The notes under the pieces: model-generated | The model's input: the letters and a program-made list of their open reading frames with translations, nothing else | Told to the model about the DNA's origin: nothing | Database searches by the model: none | Shown: positions 9,318 to 16,559 of the stretch, piece by piece | Layout of the letters: each line of letters opens with the position of its first letter | Numbering within the stretch: position 1 is the first letter of the stretch | From: a candidate division CSSED10-310 bacterium | GTDB taxonomy: Bacteria > CSSED10-310 > JAFGJC01 | Reading direction: 5' to 3' | Assembly: GCA_016927905.1 (NCBI GenBank) | Contig: JAFGLW010000001.1 | Location: 1-64,000 of the forward strand | DNA length: 64,000 nt | Made by a program: the position numbers and the translations under genes

Positions 9318-10181
9318 GTGTTTGGAAAAGCTTTTTGTATTATCGGATTGGGCCGGGTTGGATCGGTGTTTGCCCGGGAATTGAAGCGGGCTGGATTCAT
9401 TATCCGGGGCATGATCGATCTGGAAAATCGTAAAACGGAGAATATCCTGGCCACACTGGGGATCGACTCGATTTCAACGGATATCACTGTCATACCGGAA
9501 TGCGATATCATCGTCATTGCCGTCGGGGACAATGAACTGCCGGGATTTGTCCGGAATCTCAGAGATGCCAGCCGGTTTAAAGAGAACACGCTTGTCGTGC
9601 ATACCAGTGGCAACACCGGAGTGGATATTTTGAAACCTCTGGAGCGCGATACCATCAGCATCGGGGCCATTCACCCGATCATGGCGTTTCCTGGAGATTC
9701 GACAATCGAGAAGAGTTTTAAAAATGCCTGGTTTGGAATCCGCGGGGATTCCCGTGCTATCCGGCTTTTATCCGAATTGGTGAACGGGTTTGGCGGGTAT
9801 TGGATTCGGGTTCCGGAATCCTGTCGATTCCCGTATCACATTGCTATGGTTTTGTGTTCAAATTTCGTTATTGCCCTGGAGCTGAGTGCCCTTGAACTAA
9901 TGAAATCGTGCGGTTTGCCGGAATCTGATTCGGTTCGATTACTTCGAAATATGACACGGGACGCCCTGATGAATCTCGATACTGATGACCCACTCGACGC
10001 CCTGACGGGTCCTCTGGTCCGAAAAGACTCGATCACCATTCGATCGCACATCGAGTTTCTCGAGTCGAACCATCCGGAACTGCTGGATCTTTACCGGATC
10101 ATGAGTCGAAGAATCATCGACATTCTCCGGCGCAAATCAACGCATTCCGGCGATACCTGGGATCTCGGAGATATTCTGTGA
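9318..10181 (+). CDS. Rossmann-fold and DUF2520 domain protein
   Basis: A 287-residue protein with an N-terminal NAD(P)-binding Rossmann domain (FCIIGLGRVGSVFARELKRAG, GxGxxG type, residues 5-25) and a helical C-terminal DUF2520-type domain like those of the 6-phosphogluconate/ketopantoate-reductase superfamily (HPIMAFPGD near 120, then CRFPYHIAMVLCSNF near 170). Substrate unknown. The GTG at 9318 is used because no in-frame ATG precedes the Rossmann motif; its ribosome binding site is weak. The gene ends in a GTGA overlap with the radical SAM gene, so it heads the operon that leads into the Ycf46/Ycf35 block. Confidence 0.85.
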   Translation: MFGKAFCIIGLGRVGSVFARELKRAGFIIRGMIDLENRKTENILATLGIDSISTDITVIPECDIIVIAVGDNELPGFVRNLRDASRFKENTLVVHTSGNTGVDILKPLERDTISIGAIHPIMAFPGDSTIEKSFKNAWFGIRGDSRAIRLLSELVNGFGGYWIRVPESCRFPYHIAMVLCSNFVIALELSALELMKSCGLPESDSVRLLRNMTRDALMNLDTDDPLDALTGPLVRKDSITIRSHIEFLESNHPELLDLYRIMSRRIIDILRRKSTHSGDTWDLGDIL

Positions 10182-11296
10182 GCGTCCGCCAAAATCCTTC
10201 TCTCGATGTTTTGAAACATTTCAGGCGGAGTGTCGAAGGGTTGGAAGCCCCATCGATGGCGCAGGATGCCGGCCGTACGGATCCGGGGGTTCGGACTGGT
10301 CTGGATGCGAAAGTCCAGCATGCCGTTCAACTGATGGATCCGTGTCATCTCTGTTTTCGCCGCTGTGGTGTCCGGCGGTTGCAGGGTGAAACCGGATTTT
10401 GCGGAATTAAACAAGGCGGGAACATCGTCTTGGAGGCCGTTCTTTGCGGAGAAGAAGAGATTGTCAATCCCACATATGAAGTTTTCCTGGCCGGATGCAA
10501 TCTTCGATGTGGATTCTGTTATGAATCGAGATGGATTGAAGATCCGGGCAGTGTTCTCGAAGTTGAATCCGGGACGCTGGCGGACCGAATAGCTCGAACG
10601 GTTCCGATTCGGGCGTCCAATGTCCACTGGGTTGGCGGTGAACCATCGGTTCACCTTCCCTGGATCGTTTCAGTGCTTCGGGATTTAAGCGCTCCGGTTC
10701 CGGTTGTATGGAATTCCAATATGCTCATGACCGATGAAGCACTTGAGATTCTCACGGGCATACCCGATCTGATCCTGGCCGACATCCATTTCGGGTGCGG
10801 TGAATGCGCAGACGCCATGAGCGGTTTCGCGGGTTATTTCAATTGGGTGAAGCGTCAGATATTGAAATGTGCCGGCAAAGTGGACATGATTATCCGACAT
10901 CTTTTTCTTCCCGGTCATTTCGAATGCTGTTACCTGCCGATCGCAGAATGGATTGCCGAAAACTGTCCCACGATTCCATTTCACGTGATGCCTCAATATG
11001 TACCGCCCAGCCGAATGAAAATGCCGATACCCGACAGGCGCACCCGGCCGGATGAGATCGAACGGGCTGTAGAAACTGCGAAATTGATGAAACTGAATGT
11101 GATGGAGCGGCCTTTCATTCCGGGTGGCGGACCCGCCGGGACACCTGGTTTTGAAACGGAGATAGAAATTTTTCAAGATGGCACCGTCGCCATTCGGAAT
11201 TTTTCGGGTGATTTTATCGATATGGTTCGATTTCTGCAGTCCGGAGAAACCGATACCGGTCGATTTGAAAGGACATCTGATAATCGTGACCGATGA
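10178..11296 (+). CDS. Radical SAM protein, PflX-like
   Basis: A 372-residue radical SAM enzyme of the type often annotated as a pyruvate-formate-lyase-activating-enzyme relative (PflX-like). The [4Fe-4S] motif is C107-x3-C111-x2-C114 in CNLRCGFCYES. A conserved cysteine set sits upstream, CHLCFRRC...GFCGI (Cys56, 59, 63, 74), possibly for a second metal site. WVGGEPSVHLP is the usual GGEP SAM-binding motif. No glycyl-radical enzyme is encoded nearby, so the substrate is unknown. The GTG start overlaps the upstream stop, and its own 3' end overlaps the AAA gene by 11 bases. A modification role toward a neighbouring product is possible but not shown. Confidence 0.88.
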   Translation: MSVRQNPSLDVLKHFRRSVEGLEAPSMAQDAGRTDPGVRTGLDAKVQHAVQLMDPCHLCFRRCGVRRLQGETGFCGIKQGGNIVLEAVLCGEEEIVNPTYEVFLAGCNLRCGFCYESRWIEDPGSVLEVESGTLADRIARTVPIRASNVHWVGGEPSVHLPWIVSVLRDLSAPVPVVWNSNMLMTDEALEILTGIPDLILADIHFGCGECADAMSGFAGYFNWVKRQILKCAGKVDMIIRHLFLPGHFECCYLPIAEWIAENCPTIPFHVMPQYVPPSRMKMPIPDRRTRPDEIERAVETAKLMKLNVMERPFIPGGGPAGTPGFETEIEIFQDGTVAIRNFSGDFIDMVRFLQSGETDTGRFERTSDNRDR

Positions 11297-12890
11297 CAAC
11301 AGCCGGGATGATGCACCGTGCAGATCGAAAATTGAAACAATCGAATCCACTTCGGACCTGTTTTCTTCGGAGCTGGAGGTGTTGATCCGTTCGCGGTATC
11401 CCCTGATTGGAATACAGTCCTGGGAGGAGGATAGGGCGATCGAAATCGTTCGCTCCGTTGCTCTCAGACTGAACAAGCGGGTCTTCAGCTGGTCGGTTGC
11501 ACAGGGTCTGATACCGCTGGATATGAACCGGCAGCGCCGACCCATAGACACTTCGTCGAACGATCCTCAATTAATCTTGAGAAAGATCCAGGATCTGGTG
11601 GAGCCGGCGATTTTTCTTTTCCTGGATTTCCATCCGTACTTGAAGGAAGCTTCCGTGATCCGCATGCTTCGGGATGTCGTCAGGGACTTCAAACACAACC
11701 TCAAGACACTTGTGTTGCTTTCCCCGCACATTCCAGTTCCCACCGAACTGGAGAAAGATCTTGCCCTAACCGAACTTCCCCTGCCGGGATCACGAGATCT
11801 GGGTGTGCTTCTGGATGGTATCGTTCAGGAAATAAACCAGCGCAGGGACATCAAATTGGAACTGGACGGAGAAACCAGGGAACGATTGATCCAGGGCACG
11901 ATGGGTCTGACCTTAACGGAAGCCGAGAATGTTCTGGCCCGCGCCATTGTATCGCAGGGCGGATTGAGCTTGGATGCCCTGAACCTGATCATATGTGAAA
12001 AGGAACAGATCATCCGCAGATCGGGTGTTCTGGAATTTTATTCATCTGGGGAACGGTTCGACAATATCGGAGGTCTGGAATTTTTAAAGGATTGGTTGAG
12101 AAAACGCGGCAAGTCTTTTTCGGTAAGAGCCAGGGAGTTTGGTTTGCCGGCTCCCAAAGGTATCCTGCTCATCGGGGTTCAGGGCTGCGGAAAAAGCCTG
12201 ACCGCAAAGGCGGTGGCCAGCTACTGGAGCATGCCTCTTTTAAAACTGGATGTCGGCTCATTGTTCTCCTCCCTGGTCGGATCCACTGAAGAAAACCTGA
12301 GAAAAGCTCTGGCTACGGCGGAGAGTGTGTCACCGGCCATCCTGTGGGTGGATGAGATTGAAAAGGGATTTGCCGGAATCGAAAGCTCCGGCAGGCTGGA
12401 TGCTGGCACAAGCGCCCGCGTTTTCGGCGGCCTGATCACCTGGCTTCAGGAGAAGAGTGCGCCCGTTTTTGTCATTGCCACCGCAAACGATATTTCCAGG
12501 TTGCCCCCGGAAATGCTTCGCAAAGGCCGGTTCGACGAAATTTTTTTCATCGACCTGCCGACCCGGGCGGAACGCAGGGCTATTTTGAACATACATCTGC
12601 TCAAACGCGGGTTCTCTCCCGAGTCATTTGATATTGAAAAACTGATCGAGTCGTCCCTCGGTTATTCCGGGGCTGAAATCGAGAGCAGCATCGTGTCGTC
12701 GATGTTCGATGTATTCGATTCCGGCGGCAAGCTGGCAACGGAATCCATTGAAAAAGCTCTCAAGGAAACCGTGCCGTTATCTCGACTAATGGAGGAGAAA
12801 GTGGAAGAATTGCGGAAATGGTCGGCCGGCCGGGTTCGGAGAAGTTCCGTTCCGGAGATCGCGAATGGGAAAAGGGGAGATTTGCAATGA
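11286..12890 (+). CDS. Ycf46-like AAA family ATPase
   Basis: A 534-residue AAA protein. The N-terminal region begins with [19 protein letters not shown] (about 33-51) and FSWSVAQGL, the signature I know from cyanobacterial and plastid Ycf46. After a degenerate first ATPase-like half comes a classical AAA module: [13 protein letters not shown] near 260, Walker A GVQGCGKS (about 297-304), Walker [11 protein letters not shown] (about 352-361), sensor-1 FVIATANDI and the arginine-finger-region [15 protein letters not shown] 11286 is the probable start (AAAGGA 12 bases upstream); a TTG at 11262 is an alternative. Ycf46 has been linked to CO2/photosynthesis regulation in cyanobacteria, but its substrate is unknown. 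Overlaps its neighbours on both sides. Confidence 0.88.
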
Positions 12891-13357
12891 GTTGTGTGTT
12901 TATCGTGACACCTTTCGTCGTTGGGAACTGGGCTGTCCTGACATCGCTGGTAGGGGGCGCGGCGGCGCACCTGGGCTATCGGATGGCCCGGTCTGCCGCC
13001 GAGAATTACCGTGCGTCTGAAGCGGAACAGATGCAGAGTGTGGAGTTGGAACTGGAGAATTCGGAAGTCATAGCTGATCAGCTCAGAAGGGGAGATGTTA
13101 TGGTTTTGACCCGGGAAGCGGTCACCATCACCATTTCCCTGGACGGTTTGGGGCGGATGAAGGCCGCCGTCAGCGGACCGGAATCCATGCTCAAAGATGA
13201 ACTGGAACAGCTGGGTCAGGAGTTTTTGAACCAAGTCATTCAGCAGTATGCCTATCAGAAGATAATCGCTGAACTTAAAATAAAGGGATTTTCATTGATT
13301 GATGAACAGGTGGAATCCGACGGCAGGATCCGTCTCAAGGTTCGCAAATATGAATAG
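12887..13357 (+). CDS. Ycf35/DUF1257-like protein
   Basis: A 156-residue protein whose ATG overlaps the AAA stop (ATGA), with GGGGAG about 9 bases upstream. The C-terminal third, QEFLNQVIQQYAYQKIIAEL...GRIRLKVRKYE, matches the pattern I remember for the C-terminus of DUF1257 (Ycf35 of cyanobacteria and plastids). The N-terminus differs: it carries a hydrophobic, Gly/Ala-rich segment (about residues 5-35) that might be membrane-associated. Function of the family is unknown. Position directly behind a Ycf46-like ATPase and before a DUF2997 protein supports the assignment, since these families tend to co-occur. Confidence 0.7.
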   Translation: MSCVFIVTPFVVGNWAVLTSLVGGAAAHLGYRMARSAAENYRASEAEQMQSVELELENSEVIADQLRRGDVMVLTREAVTITISLDGLGRMKAAVSGPESMLKDELEQLGQEFLNQVIQQYAYQKIIAELKIKGFSLIDEQVESDGRIRLKVRKYE

Positions 13358-13371
13358 ATGGGAAATGGGGA

Positions 13372-14145
13372 ATGGGCCGTTTCGACAGACTTGAGATTCC
13401 GGGAACATCATCCAGAATGGAACCGGAGCAGGGCGAAACCGGCAGACCCATTTACGATGCCGATCGGTTCATGGATCTGGCGGATGCCGATTTCTGGAAT
13501 GGCGATTATGAGACTTCTCTCAGGTATTTTTCCAAAGCACTCCGGGAAAATGCCGCCCTGGACACGGCCTGGCTGGGGCAGGTTCTTTGCCTGATCCGTC
13601 TGGGTGAATTCCGGGAAGCTCTGATCTGGGTCGATAAAGCGCTGGACAGATTTCCCAAATCGGCCGATCTGCTTGCTGCCAAAGCGGTCGTATATTCCCG
13701 GCTCGGGGACAAACGAAAAGCCCTGGATTTTTCGGATGGTGCATTGAATATCCGGTCGGATTCCCCCTATTTGTGGGTTGCCAGGGGAGACGTTCTTTTG
13801 AATGCCAGCCAGAAGAACGCCCGGAGATGCATGACCAAGGCCATGGAATTCCAGCCCGATGACTGGAAAATGAAAGTCACCGTTGGGGACGCCTATCGCG
13901 AATCAGGATATTTCAGGGACGCACTGCATTGCTATATCCAGGCTGCAGAACAGAAACCGGATAATGCGCGGATCTGGCTGATGATCGGCGAATGCCGCAG
14001 GCGGCTGGGATTGAGAAACGCGGTTGAAGCATTCCGTCATGCACTGGATCTGCGTCCAGGTTGGACGGAAGCTCGGAAATTGGCAACAACCGGACAGGCG
14101 TCGTTGGCGGGTCGAGTTTTCAGGCGACTGCTGCACCTCAGATAA
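13372..14145 (+). CDS. TPR-repeat protein of the Ycf46/Ycf35 block
   Basis: A 257-residue protein built almost wholly from tetratricopeptide repeats: from residue 38 on there are about five helix-turn-helix units of 34 residues (for example ADADFWNGDYETSLRYFSKA, and repeats ending in KALDRFP, ALNIRSD, AMEFQPD, AAEQKPD, ALDLRPG). No signal peptide, so cytoplasmic. TPR arrays bind other proteins; here the likely clients are the flanking ATPase, DUF1257-like and DUF2997 proteins. It starts 14 bases after the previous gene. Confidence 0.88.
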   Translation: MGRFDRLEIPGTSSRMEPEQGETGRPIYDADRFMDLADADFWNGDYETSLRYFSKALRENAALDTAWLGQVLCLIRLGEFREALIWVDKALDRFPKSADLLAAKAVVYSRLGDKRKALDFSDGALNIRSDSPYLWVARGDVLLNASQKNARRCMTKAMEFQPDDWKMKVTVGDAYRESGYFRDALHCYIQAAEQKPDNARIWLMIGECRRRLGLRNAVEAFRHALDLRPGWTEARKLATTGQASLAGRVFRRLLHLR

Positions 14146-14174
14146 TGATCACCCCGGACTGAAAGGAGCGCATC

Positions 14175-14387
14175 GTGGCACGCAAGGTTGAAATCGAAGT
14201 GCAGATTTTAAAGAATGGTAAAGTGCGGTTTAATGTCAAGGGAAGAAAAGGACCGTCATGTCTCGACTTTCTGAAAATCATGCAGAACGAGTTGGGAAGG
14301 GTGGAGCATTTAGAATATACATCGGAGTATTACGAGAAGGAGCAGGCGGAGGGATCGATCGAGACACGGAGTGACACGGAGGAATAG
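14175..14387 (+). CDS. DUF2997 domain protein
   Basis: A 70-residue protein starting at GTG 14175 behind AAAGGAG. It matches the DUF2997 pattern: a basic beta-strand start (VEIEVQILKNGKVRFNVKG), then KGPSCLDFLKIMQNELG, and the hallmark YTSEYYEKE near residues 48-56; the tail is acidic. DUF2997 proteins are of unknown function and, as I recall, are encoded next to DUF1257/Ycf35 proteins and AAA ATPases, which is exactly the situation here. Confidence 0.8.
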   Translation: MARKVEIEVQILKNGKVRFNVKGRKGPSCLDFLKIMQNELGRVEHLEYTSEYYEKEQAEGSIETRSDTEE

Positions 14388-14402: not shown

Positions 14403-15482
14403 GTGAAAAAACTGAGATATTATCTGGAACAGGCGATCAAACGAGAAGCATCCGATCTGCATCTGGTGAGTAATCTGGCACCCGTCGTTCGAATTCACGG
14501 AGACATCCATCTGCTGCCCGAACCGGTCATGACACCTGCTGATCTGAAAGATTTGATTTACGGGATATTGAACGAGGAACAGCGGAAAAAAATTGAAACC
14601 GACTGGCAACTCTGTTTCTCTTTGACCTTTGAAGATCTGGGTTATTTTCGGGTGAACATATACTATCATCGCCGGAGGATCGAGGCGGCCATTCGAATCG
14701 GTTCTCTGAGCATGAGGACATTCGAGGAACTTGGATTACCCACAATTATCGGCAAAATGGTATGCCATCCAAACGGTATTCTGATCATTACCGGACCGAC
14801 GGGTGTCGGCAAAACCACCACGTTCAATTCGATTATCGACCGGATCAACCGGGAACGGCGCACCAAGATCGTGACGGTTGAAGATCCCATAGAGTATATT
14901 CACCAGAATTACCGATCCATCGTAATCCAGCAGGAAGTCCACACCGATGTGAAATCCTTCGGTTCCGCACTGGTCCACATTTTGCGGCAGGATCCGAATG
15001 TCATCGGGATCGGTGAAATGCGGGATCTGGATACGATATCCACAGCCCTAACCGCTGCCGAAACAGGCCATCTGGTCATTGCCACTCTTCATACCAATGA
15101 TGCCAGTCGAACTGTCAACCGGATAATCGATGTTTTCCCGGCGCATGCCAAAGCTCAGGTGCGAACCCAGCTGGCATCTTCACTGGTCGGGATCATCTCC
15201 CAGCAGCTTCTTCCCAGAATCGATGGGAACGGCCGGGTTCTTGCCTGTGAAGTCCTGATCGCGACCGAAGCGGTCCGAAATGTCATCCGCGAAGATAAAA
15301 TCCAGACGCTCCCCAACGTGATTCTCACCGGTCAGAGACATGGAATGCAACTCATGGACAAGTCCCTCCTGGATCTCTACCAGCAGGGTATCATCAGCTA
15401 TGACACAGCGATCAGCAAGGTCAACGATCCGAAACTTTTCAAATCGGGTCTGAAAGTGCTGGGACAAGAACCGTTGAATTGA
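14403..15482 (+). CDS. pilT: PilT-type twitching motility / secretion ATPase
   Basis: A 359-residue retraction-type ATPase of the type IV pilus (GspE/PilT superfamily), a cytoplasmic hexamer acting at the inner membrane. Visible: N-terminal domain with SDLHLVSNLAPVVRIHGDI (residues 17-35), Walker A GPTGVGKTTT near 131, Asp box around VTVEDPIEYIHQN, Walker B IGIGEMRD, His box TGHLVIATLHTND, and the arginine-rich C-terminal part. GTG start at 14403, 15 bases after the DUF2997 gene. No pilin or other pilus assembly gene is in the window, so this may be one of several paralogues (PilT or PilU). Confidence 0.93.
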   Translation: MKKLRYYLEQAIKREASDLHLVSNLAPVVRIHGDIHLLPEPVMTPADLKDLIYGILNEEQRKKIETDWQLCFSLTFEDLGYFRVNIYYHRRRIEAAIRIGSLSMRTFEELGLPTIIGKMVCHPNGILIITGPTGVGKTTTFNSIIDRINRERRTKIVTVEDPIEYIHQNYRSIVIQQEVHTDVKSFGSALVHILRQDPNVIGIGEMRDLDTISTALTAAETGHLVIATLHTNDASRTVNRIIDVFPAHAKAQVRTQLASSLVGIISQQLLPRIDGNGRVLACEVLIATEAVRNVIREDKIQTLPNVILTGQRHGMQLMDKSLLDLYQQGIISYDTAISKVNDPKLFKSGLKVLGQEPLN

Positions 15483-15506: not shown

Positions 15507-16559
15507 ATGGAATGCCCCAAATGCGGCACCCCGAATTTCCCCACAAATCCCCGGTGCAGCGAATGCGGTCATCCACTTTGCGATTCAATAAACTCAGTCT
15601 CCACCCTTCCCGAACGATTTTACCCTCCGCGGCGGCGTCATCGCGGTAAAAGACGGATTGACAGGGCAGCTCAATCGGTTTCGCGAATCATTCATGTTTT
15701 ATGGCTGGCGGTTGTCGGCAGACGAAGGCGGAGTGCCGGAATACTGGCTGTATCAATGTCGACGGTTGTTCCCGGATCCGGATTGATATATCTGAAAAAG
15801 TCCATTCGGGGTGCAATCTATTTTGCGGCTTCTCTTTTCATGTTGGCAATGGGTGTCCATACCATTCGCCAGCCTGTATCCAATGTCCTGCTGACCTTCG
15901 GCGCACTTGCATGGTACAGCGGTATTTTCGACACGTTCCGGGTGTTCCGGCTGCAATCGGGTCGGAGCCGCCTCGGTCCGGGTTTTTATGCGGGAATTTC
16001 ACTGGCTGCAGCTGGTTGCGTTGTTTTACTGATTTCTGCGTTCACCATCTTCATGCCCGGGCAGATCAGGTTCCCGTTGATGGAGTATAGCCTTTTTCCT
16101 CCTGCCTTCATCAGGGGCGACCGGCTCATGGTCAGATCCGTATCCTCCGAATCGGTCGGAAACCTCAACCGTTCCCAGTGGGTGGTCATCAACATGAATG
16201 GAGGCTTCCATACTCTGGCAATCATCATCGGCCGACCCGGGGAATTCGTTCGGTATGAGTCCGACCGGTTGTCGATAAACAATCTGCCCGTGAACATTTC
16301 GGAAGAAAATATTCCTCTGATCCGGAAAACGTTCGCCAATAAGGTTCCAGAACATTCCTACCTGGTATGGTTAACCCTGCAGGTGATGTATCATCAATTT
16401 GATTTTTATAATCAGGGCCTGATGAATATCAACCCGGCCGGTATCATGGGACGGGACACAATCCGATATCATGCCGATCCGATCGTGTGCCAGTTCGAAG
16501 ACATCGAATCGGTTGTGCAGGCAACGATTTTTCCTTCACACCGGAGACGACTATGGTAA
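15507..16559 (+). CDS. Zinc-ribbon membrane protein with degenerate signal-peptidase-I-like domain
   Basis: A 350-residue protein. The N-terminus is a zinc ribbon (Cys3, 6, 17, 20). A basic linker is followed by several hydrophobic segments (about 75-180), and then a domain resembling S26 signal peptidase: YSLFPPAFIRGDRLMVRS (about 194-211) corresponds to the SMxPxxxxGDR block, with Ser195 possibly at the nucleophile position, and IIIGRPGEFVRYESDRLSI (about 239-257) to the GLPGD block. The catalytic lysine normally preceding that block appears to be replaced by Ala238, so it is probably not an active peptidase. It follows pilT by 24 bases, hinting at an envelope or pilus link. The family alignment is by eye. 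Confidence 0.65.
   Translation: MECPKCGTPNFPTNPRCSECGHPLCDSINSVSTLPERFYPPRRRHRGKRRIDRAAQSVSRIIHVLWLAVVGRRRRSAGILAVSMSTVVPGSGLIYLKKSIRGAIYFAASLFMLAMGVHTIRQPVSNVLLTFGALAWYSGIFDTFRVFRLQSGRSRLGPGFYAGISLAAAGCVVLLISAFTIFMPGQIRFPLMEYSLFPPAFIRGDRLMVRSVSSESVGNLNRSQWVVINMNGGFHTLAIIIGRPGEFVRYESDRLSINNLPVNISEENIPLIRKTFANKVPEHSYLVWLTLQVMYHQFDFYNQGLMNINPAGIMGRDTIRYHADPIVCQFEDIESVVQATIFPSHRRRLW

Follow-up and report, generated by a model that had tools for sequence, protein, structure and literature searches.

A stretch of 64,000 nucleotides from a candidate division CSSED10-310 bacterium (positions 1 to 64,000 of contig JAFGLW010000001.1, assembly GCA_016927905.1; the whole stretch is called the window here) carries seven forward-strand genes between positions 10178 and 16559 that recur together in other genomes and, with very little doubt, form a conserved module. 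In order, they encode a radical S-adenosylmethionine (SAM) enzyme (10178 to 11296), a Ycf46-type AAA+ ATPase (11286 to 12890), a Ycf35-related DUF1257 protein (12887 to 13357), a TPR protein (13372 to 14145), a DUF2997 protein of 70 amino acids (14175 to 14387), a PilT-like secretion/retraction ATPase (14403 to 15482), and a membrane protein with an N-terminal zinc ribbon and a signal-peptidase-I-like domain (15507 to 16559). The module consists of ordinary families in an undescribed combination, and it comes with a testable new motif, RFxx[LI]E, found at the N-terminus of the TPR protein and near an end of unrelated proteins encoded next to the AAA, DUF1257, and DUF2997 genes elsewhere. Our overall reading, in which we place about even confidence, is that of a tag-directed AAA+ remodeler that has two small proteins as its dedicated cofactors and is often tied to iron-sulfur (Fe-S) or radical chemistry.

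A conserved seven-gene module

Three sets of loci were surveyed: regions of up to 20 kb around DUF2997 matches, 80 loci with the best AAA relatives that a scan across GTDB returned, and an additional 40 loci with DUF2997. In each locus, open reading frames (ORFs) were predicted and then searched with iterated profiles built from the proteins of the window. The larger block of seven genes (radical SAM, AAA, DUF1257, DUF2997, zinc-ribbon/S26, TPR, and PilT) was found in at least 20 further loci, complete or partial (some are cut by contig ends) and with shuffled gene order. These loci belong to the Planctomycetota (L035, L049, L050, L058, L065, L069, L082, L086, L178, L181, and L197), the Verrucomicrobiota (L053, L054, and L056), and other lineages (L033, L034, L037, L059, L187, and L215). 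The window order of AAA, DUF1257, TPR, and DUF2997 is seen again in L059 and L215, and that of DUF1257, TPR, and DUF2997 in L034. Membership varies by locus, with no recognizable zinc-ribbon gene in L033 and no detected radical SAM gene in L037. A tandem pair of AAA genes opens the larger block in L059 (L059:3-3164).

The initial annotation of the window had drawn this block as a row of six genes in one direction, from a DUF2520 dehydrogenase-like gene (9318 to 10181, forward strand; Pfam DUF2520, 2.5e-27) to the DUF2997 gene. All six ORFs are present at these coordinates and on this strand, and the row is linked as proposed; its limits are what changed. The DUF2520 profile matched only in the window and at no other surveyed locus, so we rejected this co-directional gene as a member of the module and place it outside the recurring unit. 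At the other end, the run continues co-directionally past DUF2997, with the PilT-like gene after 15 bases and the zinc-ribbon/S26-like gene after another 24 bases, and the unit extends to 16559. The DUF2520 and radical SAM genes overlap by GTGA, the radical SAM and AAA genes by 11 bases, and the AAA and DUF1257 genes by ATGA, while gaps of 14 bases and 29 bases separate DUF1257 from TPR and TPR from DUF2997. The annotation had given these sizes correctly but spoke of overlaps at the first four junctions, where there are three overlaps and two gaps. Its family assignments (DUF2520, Radical_SAM, AAA, DUF1257, TPR, and DUF2997) all exceed the Pfam gathering cut-offs, DUF1257 in its C-terminal half only. 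None of the six proteins had a match above cut-off in NCBIfam, and an Rfam scan gave no match.

The AAA, DUF1257, and DUF2997 core

Within the module, AAA, DUF1257, and DUF2997 form a core that is held together far more widely than the rest. In 71 of 84 loci, no more than 1.2 kb separates DUF1257 from DUF2997, and in 66 of 84 an AAA gene is found on the same strand within 5 kb of DUF2997; this linkage is far above chance. It bears out the conserved linkage across phyla on which the proposal of a block depended. The association extends to whole genomes: in a sample of 386, the AAA (E<=1e-60) is present in 18 of the 21 genomes with DUF2997 versus 43 of the 365 others (Fisher p=3e-13), and G308, one of the three DUF2997 genomes scored as lacking it, has a contig-truncated AAA. 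A Ycf46-type AAA is also encoded in 12 of 14 DUF2997 genomes, most of which were picked for having no AAA beside DUF2997. On this pattern of occurrence, the AAA is the more widespread platform, to which DUF1257 and DUF2997 are a specialized attachment. We consider it probable that the three proteins form a physical complex.

Both small proteins of the core were recovered by profile search. The DUF1257 protein scores 37.6 bits against a cut-off of 22.2 (2.8e-9), with a match that covers only positions 62 to 102 of the 103 in the profile. The alignment of its N-terminal half to the canonical strand-helix-strand start is weak, and we file the protein as a divergent, long form that appears to have a hydrophobic first strand and helix. 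An AlphaFold 2 model with a predicted local distance difference test (pLDDT) score of 75 shows strand-helix-strand, and an N-terminal membrane helix considered for this region was dropped on that basis. Searched against the PDB, the model gave no match at E<0.001 (the best was 0.043). DUF2997 matches over the whole domain (53.2 bits against a cut-off of 24.1, 2.6e-14, positions 1 to 47 of 47) and has a conserved GxxGxxC that ends in Cys29; its predicted model is poor (pLDDT 59), and it has no sequence relative in the PDB.

The initial annotation had called Ycf46 and Ycf35 plastid and cyanobacterial families, which is too narrow. The core spans cyanobacteria, Myxococcota, Asgard archaea (Hodarchaeota loci read DUF1257-DUF2997-AAA), and plasmids, and DUF2997 was found in 21 of the 386 bacterial genomes, which were sampled mostly one per family. 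It is present in 43 of 294 genomes of the phylum of G279, inferred to be Planctomycetota from the grouping of its AAA with named Planctomycetota in the tree, and in 3 of 40 and 4 of 4 genomes of two more phyla. Neither DUF2997 nor the AAA is present in seven other genomes from the phylum of the source organism, some of which are incomplete (60-96% completeness), and the window block may therefore have been acquired or be a survivor.

The partners of the core change with lineage. It is found with SNF2 helicases (L038-L040, L190), with an SF1 helicase set (L045, L046), with a ferredoxin in cyanobacteria, and, on Paenarthrobacter and Paenibacillus polymyxa plasmids from cultured strains, with a radical SAM gene only, in operons of the form AAA-DUF1257-DUF2997-radical SAM. 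In Myxococcota, cores follow a protein with an N-terminal FHA domain (L112:637-2631 by Pfam; L090, L113, and L116 by the appearance of the N-terminus). One genome, G611, has seven DUF2997 loci (L164, L191-L196), and those fetched have a divergent AAA and a conserved downstream gene of about 314-345 amino acids. Cyanobacterial AAA-DUF1257 pairs (L119-L127, L111), in which DUF2997 is absent, mostly have a small conserved gene upstream whose product (MQDKQKVTLYLPPELHRQLKIR...) resembles a ribbon-helix-helix protein.

Some of these features would suit a conflict or defense system, in which a mobile, patchy AAA module with helicase variants acts against phages or plasmids. The distribution is patchy, down to the absence from the seven other genomes of the phylum; a single genome may hold up to seven copies of DUF2997; the core can be plasmid-borne and partnered by SNF2 and SF1 helicases; and the AAA resembles IetA. 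That resemblance is limited to the AAA module, however, and in PADLOC the TPR protein had only a weak, repeat-type match, while DUF1257, DUF2997, and the membrane protein had none. The larger block also recurs across the Planctomycetes-Verrucomicrobia-Chlamydiae (PVC) group with the same partners, and Ycf46 and Ycf35 are kept in plastids. A defense function is thus improbable in our view.

A terminal tag shared by unrelated partners

The TPR protein (Pfam TPR_2, 2.5e-18) opens with the tag M-G-R-F-D-R-L-E, encoded at 13372 to 13395 on the forward strand. In the larger blocks, 19 of 20 TPR homologs begin M-x-R-F-x-x-[L/I]-E, and R3, F4, and E8 are invariant in an alignment of 12 sequences that are 28-39% identical to the window protein. 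Unrelated proteins that adjoin the core have the same RFxx[LI]E close to their N- or C-terminus. These include SNF2 helicases (ERFEWLEIP, with EWxEW[LI]E in two relatives), zinc-ribbon proteins with two copies each (L055, L061), an NHL propeller (L064), a Myxococcota family without a Pfam match (L067, L070, L072, L088), and small proteins in which the tag sits at the extreme C-terminus after a variable stretch (L078, L085, L160).

Tags in the first 60 or the last 15 residues of a protein were counted; they occurred in 26 of 439 proteins near the core versus 4 of 1217 far from it (p=5.2e-12), and seven permuted or related control motifs showed no enrichment near the core. Collapsing the proteins to families left 11/303 near versus 2/1051 far (p=3e-6), or 9/303 near once two doubtful cases were removed (p=5e-5). 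Since the motif had first been spotted by inspection, it was then scored unchanged on newly fetched loci, where it was found in 5 of 220 near and 0 of 442 far proteins (p=0.004), a modest test because three of the five carriers are related to the TPR proteins of the first set. Tags also occur with an AAA but no detected DUF1257 or DUF2997 nearby (L064, L067, L070, L073) and with DUF1257 and DUF2997 but a non-local AAA (L039, L040).

In the source genome, the TPR gene is the sole credible start-proximal match to the tag. The one other in-frame candidate (C10) was rejected as chance because it is read in an alternative frame that overlies a longer ORF, and the tags in L113 and at the end of the L086 membrane protein are probably chance as well. 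We also left out of the tag evidence the C-terminal RFSHLEH of Catdawg gp92 (L226:10856-11305), near a divergent AAA. In L026-L028, the fed7-type ferredoxin beside DUF2997 and DUF1257 has N-terminal repeats, RSGLEPELGG, that possibly parallel the tag. In the open-access literature on these families we found no account of a tag of this kind in connection with the proteins, though no search was aimed at the tag. The initial annotation had conjectured that the TPR and DUF2997 proteins bridge a target that the AAA remodels, possibly a metal- or radical-dependent enzyme complex matured by the radical SAM protein. Because unrelated partners elsewhere share its terminal tag, the TPR protein would instead appear to be a client or docking partner. 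The tag might serve as a docking signal for partner recognition, a proposal that we regard as evenly balanced.

The radical SAM enzyme and the Fe-S link

The radical SAM protein (Pfam Radical_SAM, 8.8e-11 and 42.7 bits against a cut-off of 29.5; alignment) has an intact CxxxCxxC (GCNLRCGFC) and a further upstream Cys motif, CHLC..CGV..C. It ends in a mini-domain, EIEIFQDGTVAIRNF (profile 2.5e-18 in the window protein), which in several loci is a standalone gene of 60-100 amino acids between the radical SAM and AAA genes; standalone copies are seen in L035, L036, L048, L053, L059, and L082. We do not claim this mini-domain as a DUF2997 homolog, as only the first hairpin aligns, with a probability of 42%. 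The tie to a radical SAM enzyme that was proposed for the window block is seen elsewhere too: proteins of less than 520 amino acids with CxxxCxxC make up 23 of 370 near the core versus 9 of 979 far from it (p=1.5e-7), some of the "far" proteins being block members just past the distance limit. Two radical SAM subtypes are found near the core, one of 280-380 amino acids with the extra Cys motif in larger blocks and an NrdG-like one of about 200 amino acids elsewhere.

This clustering raises the question of whether the radical SAM enzyme modifies a small protein, either DUF2997 at its conserved Cys or another one, in the manner of a ribosomally synthesized and post-translationally modified peptide, with AAA and DUF1257 presenting or releasing the substrate. 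Both radical SAM subtypes do cluster around DUF2997, which is small and has the Cys in 50 of 50 aligned relatives, and the plasmid operons hold little beyond AAA, DUF1257, DUF2997, and radical SAM. Yet cyanobacteria have a ferredoxin in place of the radical SAM enzyme (PMC4284462), and cores without radical SAM are found in Myxococcota and Asgard archaea. One DUF2997 of a larger block, a divergent copy in G135 (L215:3442-3660), lacks the Cys, and no SPASM family matched above cut-off. G135 has a second DUF2997 copy with the Cys (L036:9862-10074). A modification system is therefore an unlikely explanation.

The AAA motor, the PilT-like ATPase, and the membrane protein

The AAA protein (Pfam AAA, 3.3e-27) has intact motor motifs, namely Walker A GVQGCGKS, Walker B LWVDEIE, ATAND, and RKGRFDE, and a conserved N-terminal region of about 250 amino acids. 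It is 45-51% identical to the AAA of four distant loci. No Ycf46 model was matched in the Pfam and NCBIfam scans of the protein. In the AAA tree the window copy is a long branch without support, and the tree consequently gives no verdict on the origin of the block. Divergent Ycf46-like AAA genes are also carried by corndog-type mycobacteriophages (Mycobacterium phage Catdawg gp97, L226:6923-8701, 31.6% identity). In the Treponema succinifaciens plasmid pTRESU01 (L227), genes of a contractile injection system (VgrG/Pvc8, baseplate V) surround an AAA with 49% identity to that of the window and an NrdG-like radical SAM gene.

The PilT-like ORF has the ASDLHL start, a Walker A of GPTGVGKTTT, and a T2SSE profile match (3.1e-43). 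The membrane protein matches Peptidase_S26 (3.1e-5, 24.4 bits against a cut-off of 22.9), and its relative in L215 does so at 1.9e-14. Neither position of the signal peptidase I Ser/Lys dyad is conserved in an alignment of 13 sequences, and the protein is best read as a putative pseudo-peptidase scaffold.

These two genes could mean that the module is an accessory of type IV pili or secretion, in which the PilT-like ATPase, TPR, and membrane proteins regulate a pilus or pseudopilus and the AAA is an assembly factor. The PilT-like gene recurs in larger blocks elsewhere, and the source genome contains 14 matches to this ATPase, so that pilus or secretion machinery is likely to be encoded there. 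Most core loci are without PilT, however, no pilin, PilB, or PilC gene is a fixed neighbor, and the same core pairs elsewhere with SNF2 helicase, FHA, or ferredoxin genes. We consider a pilus accessory rather unlikely.

A possible mechanism

In the tag-directed remodeler that we favor, a Ycf46-type AAA+ protein would act together with DUF1257 and DUF2997 as its small, dedicated cofactors, and this core would remodel or assemble a client recognized by RFxx[LI]E at its N- or C-terminus. In the window version, the TPR protein would be the tag-bearer and might connect the AAA machine with a platform at the membrane, composed of the PilT-like ATPase and the zinc-ribbon/pseudo-signal-peptidase protein. 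The radical SAM enzyme, or in cyanobacteria the 4Fe-4S ferredoxin, would provide the machine with Fe-S or radical chemistry, for which the conserved cysteine of DUF2997 is a plausible site. We infer both remodeling as the activity of the AAA and this cysteine as the site of chemistry.

Several observations weigh against this reading. One TPR family supplies more than half of the tagged proteins, its relatives recur among the carriers of the second locus set, and many core loci show no RFxxLE protein. Several DUF1257/DUF2997 pairs have no nearby radical SAM or ferredoxin gene, the divergent DUF2997 of G135 is without the Cys, and in G370, a DUF2997 genome of high completeness, there is no AAA match above threshold. 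More tentatively, RFxx[LI]E could be a terminal address tag that is read by the Ycf46/DUF1257/DUF2997 machine, by which unrelated proteins (TPR scaffolds, SNF2 helicases, zinc-ribbon proteins, and NHL propellers) come under the control of one Fe-S-linked AAA+ remodeler, with plastid Ycf46 and Ycf35 as relics; this wider version is possible but we would not yet bet on it. Treating AAA, DUF1257, and DUF2997 as one core, often with radical SAM or ferredoxin genes and with partners that share a tag, leads to a simple binding test, and the compact plasmid operons of cultured organisms (Paenibacillus polymyxa M1 pPPM1a and Paenarthrobacter sp. AT5) make the system tractable.

Comparison with known systems

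To our knowledge, no biochemical role has been agreed for Ycf46 and Ycf35, which many algal plastids retain, and DUF2997 is known only as a domain of unknown function. Literature support for a function is thin. Marine red algae retain ycf35 and ycf46 (PMC5940233), and a title cited in PMC12172450 links Ycf46 to CO2 utilization in Synechocystis.

The window radical SAM protein shares Radical_SAM and Fer4_12 matches with NrdG/PflA-type activases but falls far below every NCBIfam equivalog cut-off (27.5 vs 131.15 for NrdG2 and 19.4 vs 231.75 for PFLA), and the block has no glycyl radical enzyme. The similarity to the IetAS anti-phage pair (1.4e-22 to IetA) is confined to the AAA module, and there is no S8 protease in or next to the block. 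The closest solved structures to the AAA module are those of the Cdc48/p97 remodelers, whose motor motifs are intact in the window protein. It differs from them in its N-terminal region, with no p97 N-domain homolog detected in these searches, and in its dedicated DUF1257 and DUF2997 partners. Similarity to Ycf46/Slr0374 of cyanobacteria and plastids is full-length: cyanobacterial AAA proteins adjoining DUF1257 (L111, L119-L127) are 43-46% identical to the window AAA over residues of about 11 to 524, the N-terminal region included. The window AAA is set apart from them by a non-cyanobacterial genome, different partners, the extra module genes, and its long unsupported branch.

The cyanobacterial fed7 cluster (DUF2997-DUF1257/ycf35-fed7), described as "cluster g" (PMC4284462), differs in that the AAA is encoded elsewhere in the genome, TPR, PilT, and zinc-ribbon genes are absent, the DUF1257 is of the short canonical form, and a ferredoxin takes the place of radical SAM. 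The window block has no ferredoxin gene and so does not reproduce the fed7-type DUF2997-DUF1257-ferredoxin adjacency. What the two share is an adjacent DUF2997 and DUF1257 accompanied by an Fe-S protein, and the fed7 arrangement is seen again in L026, L027, and L028.

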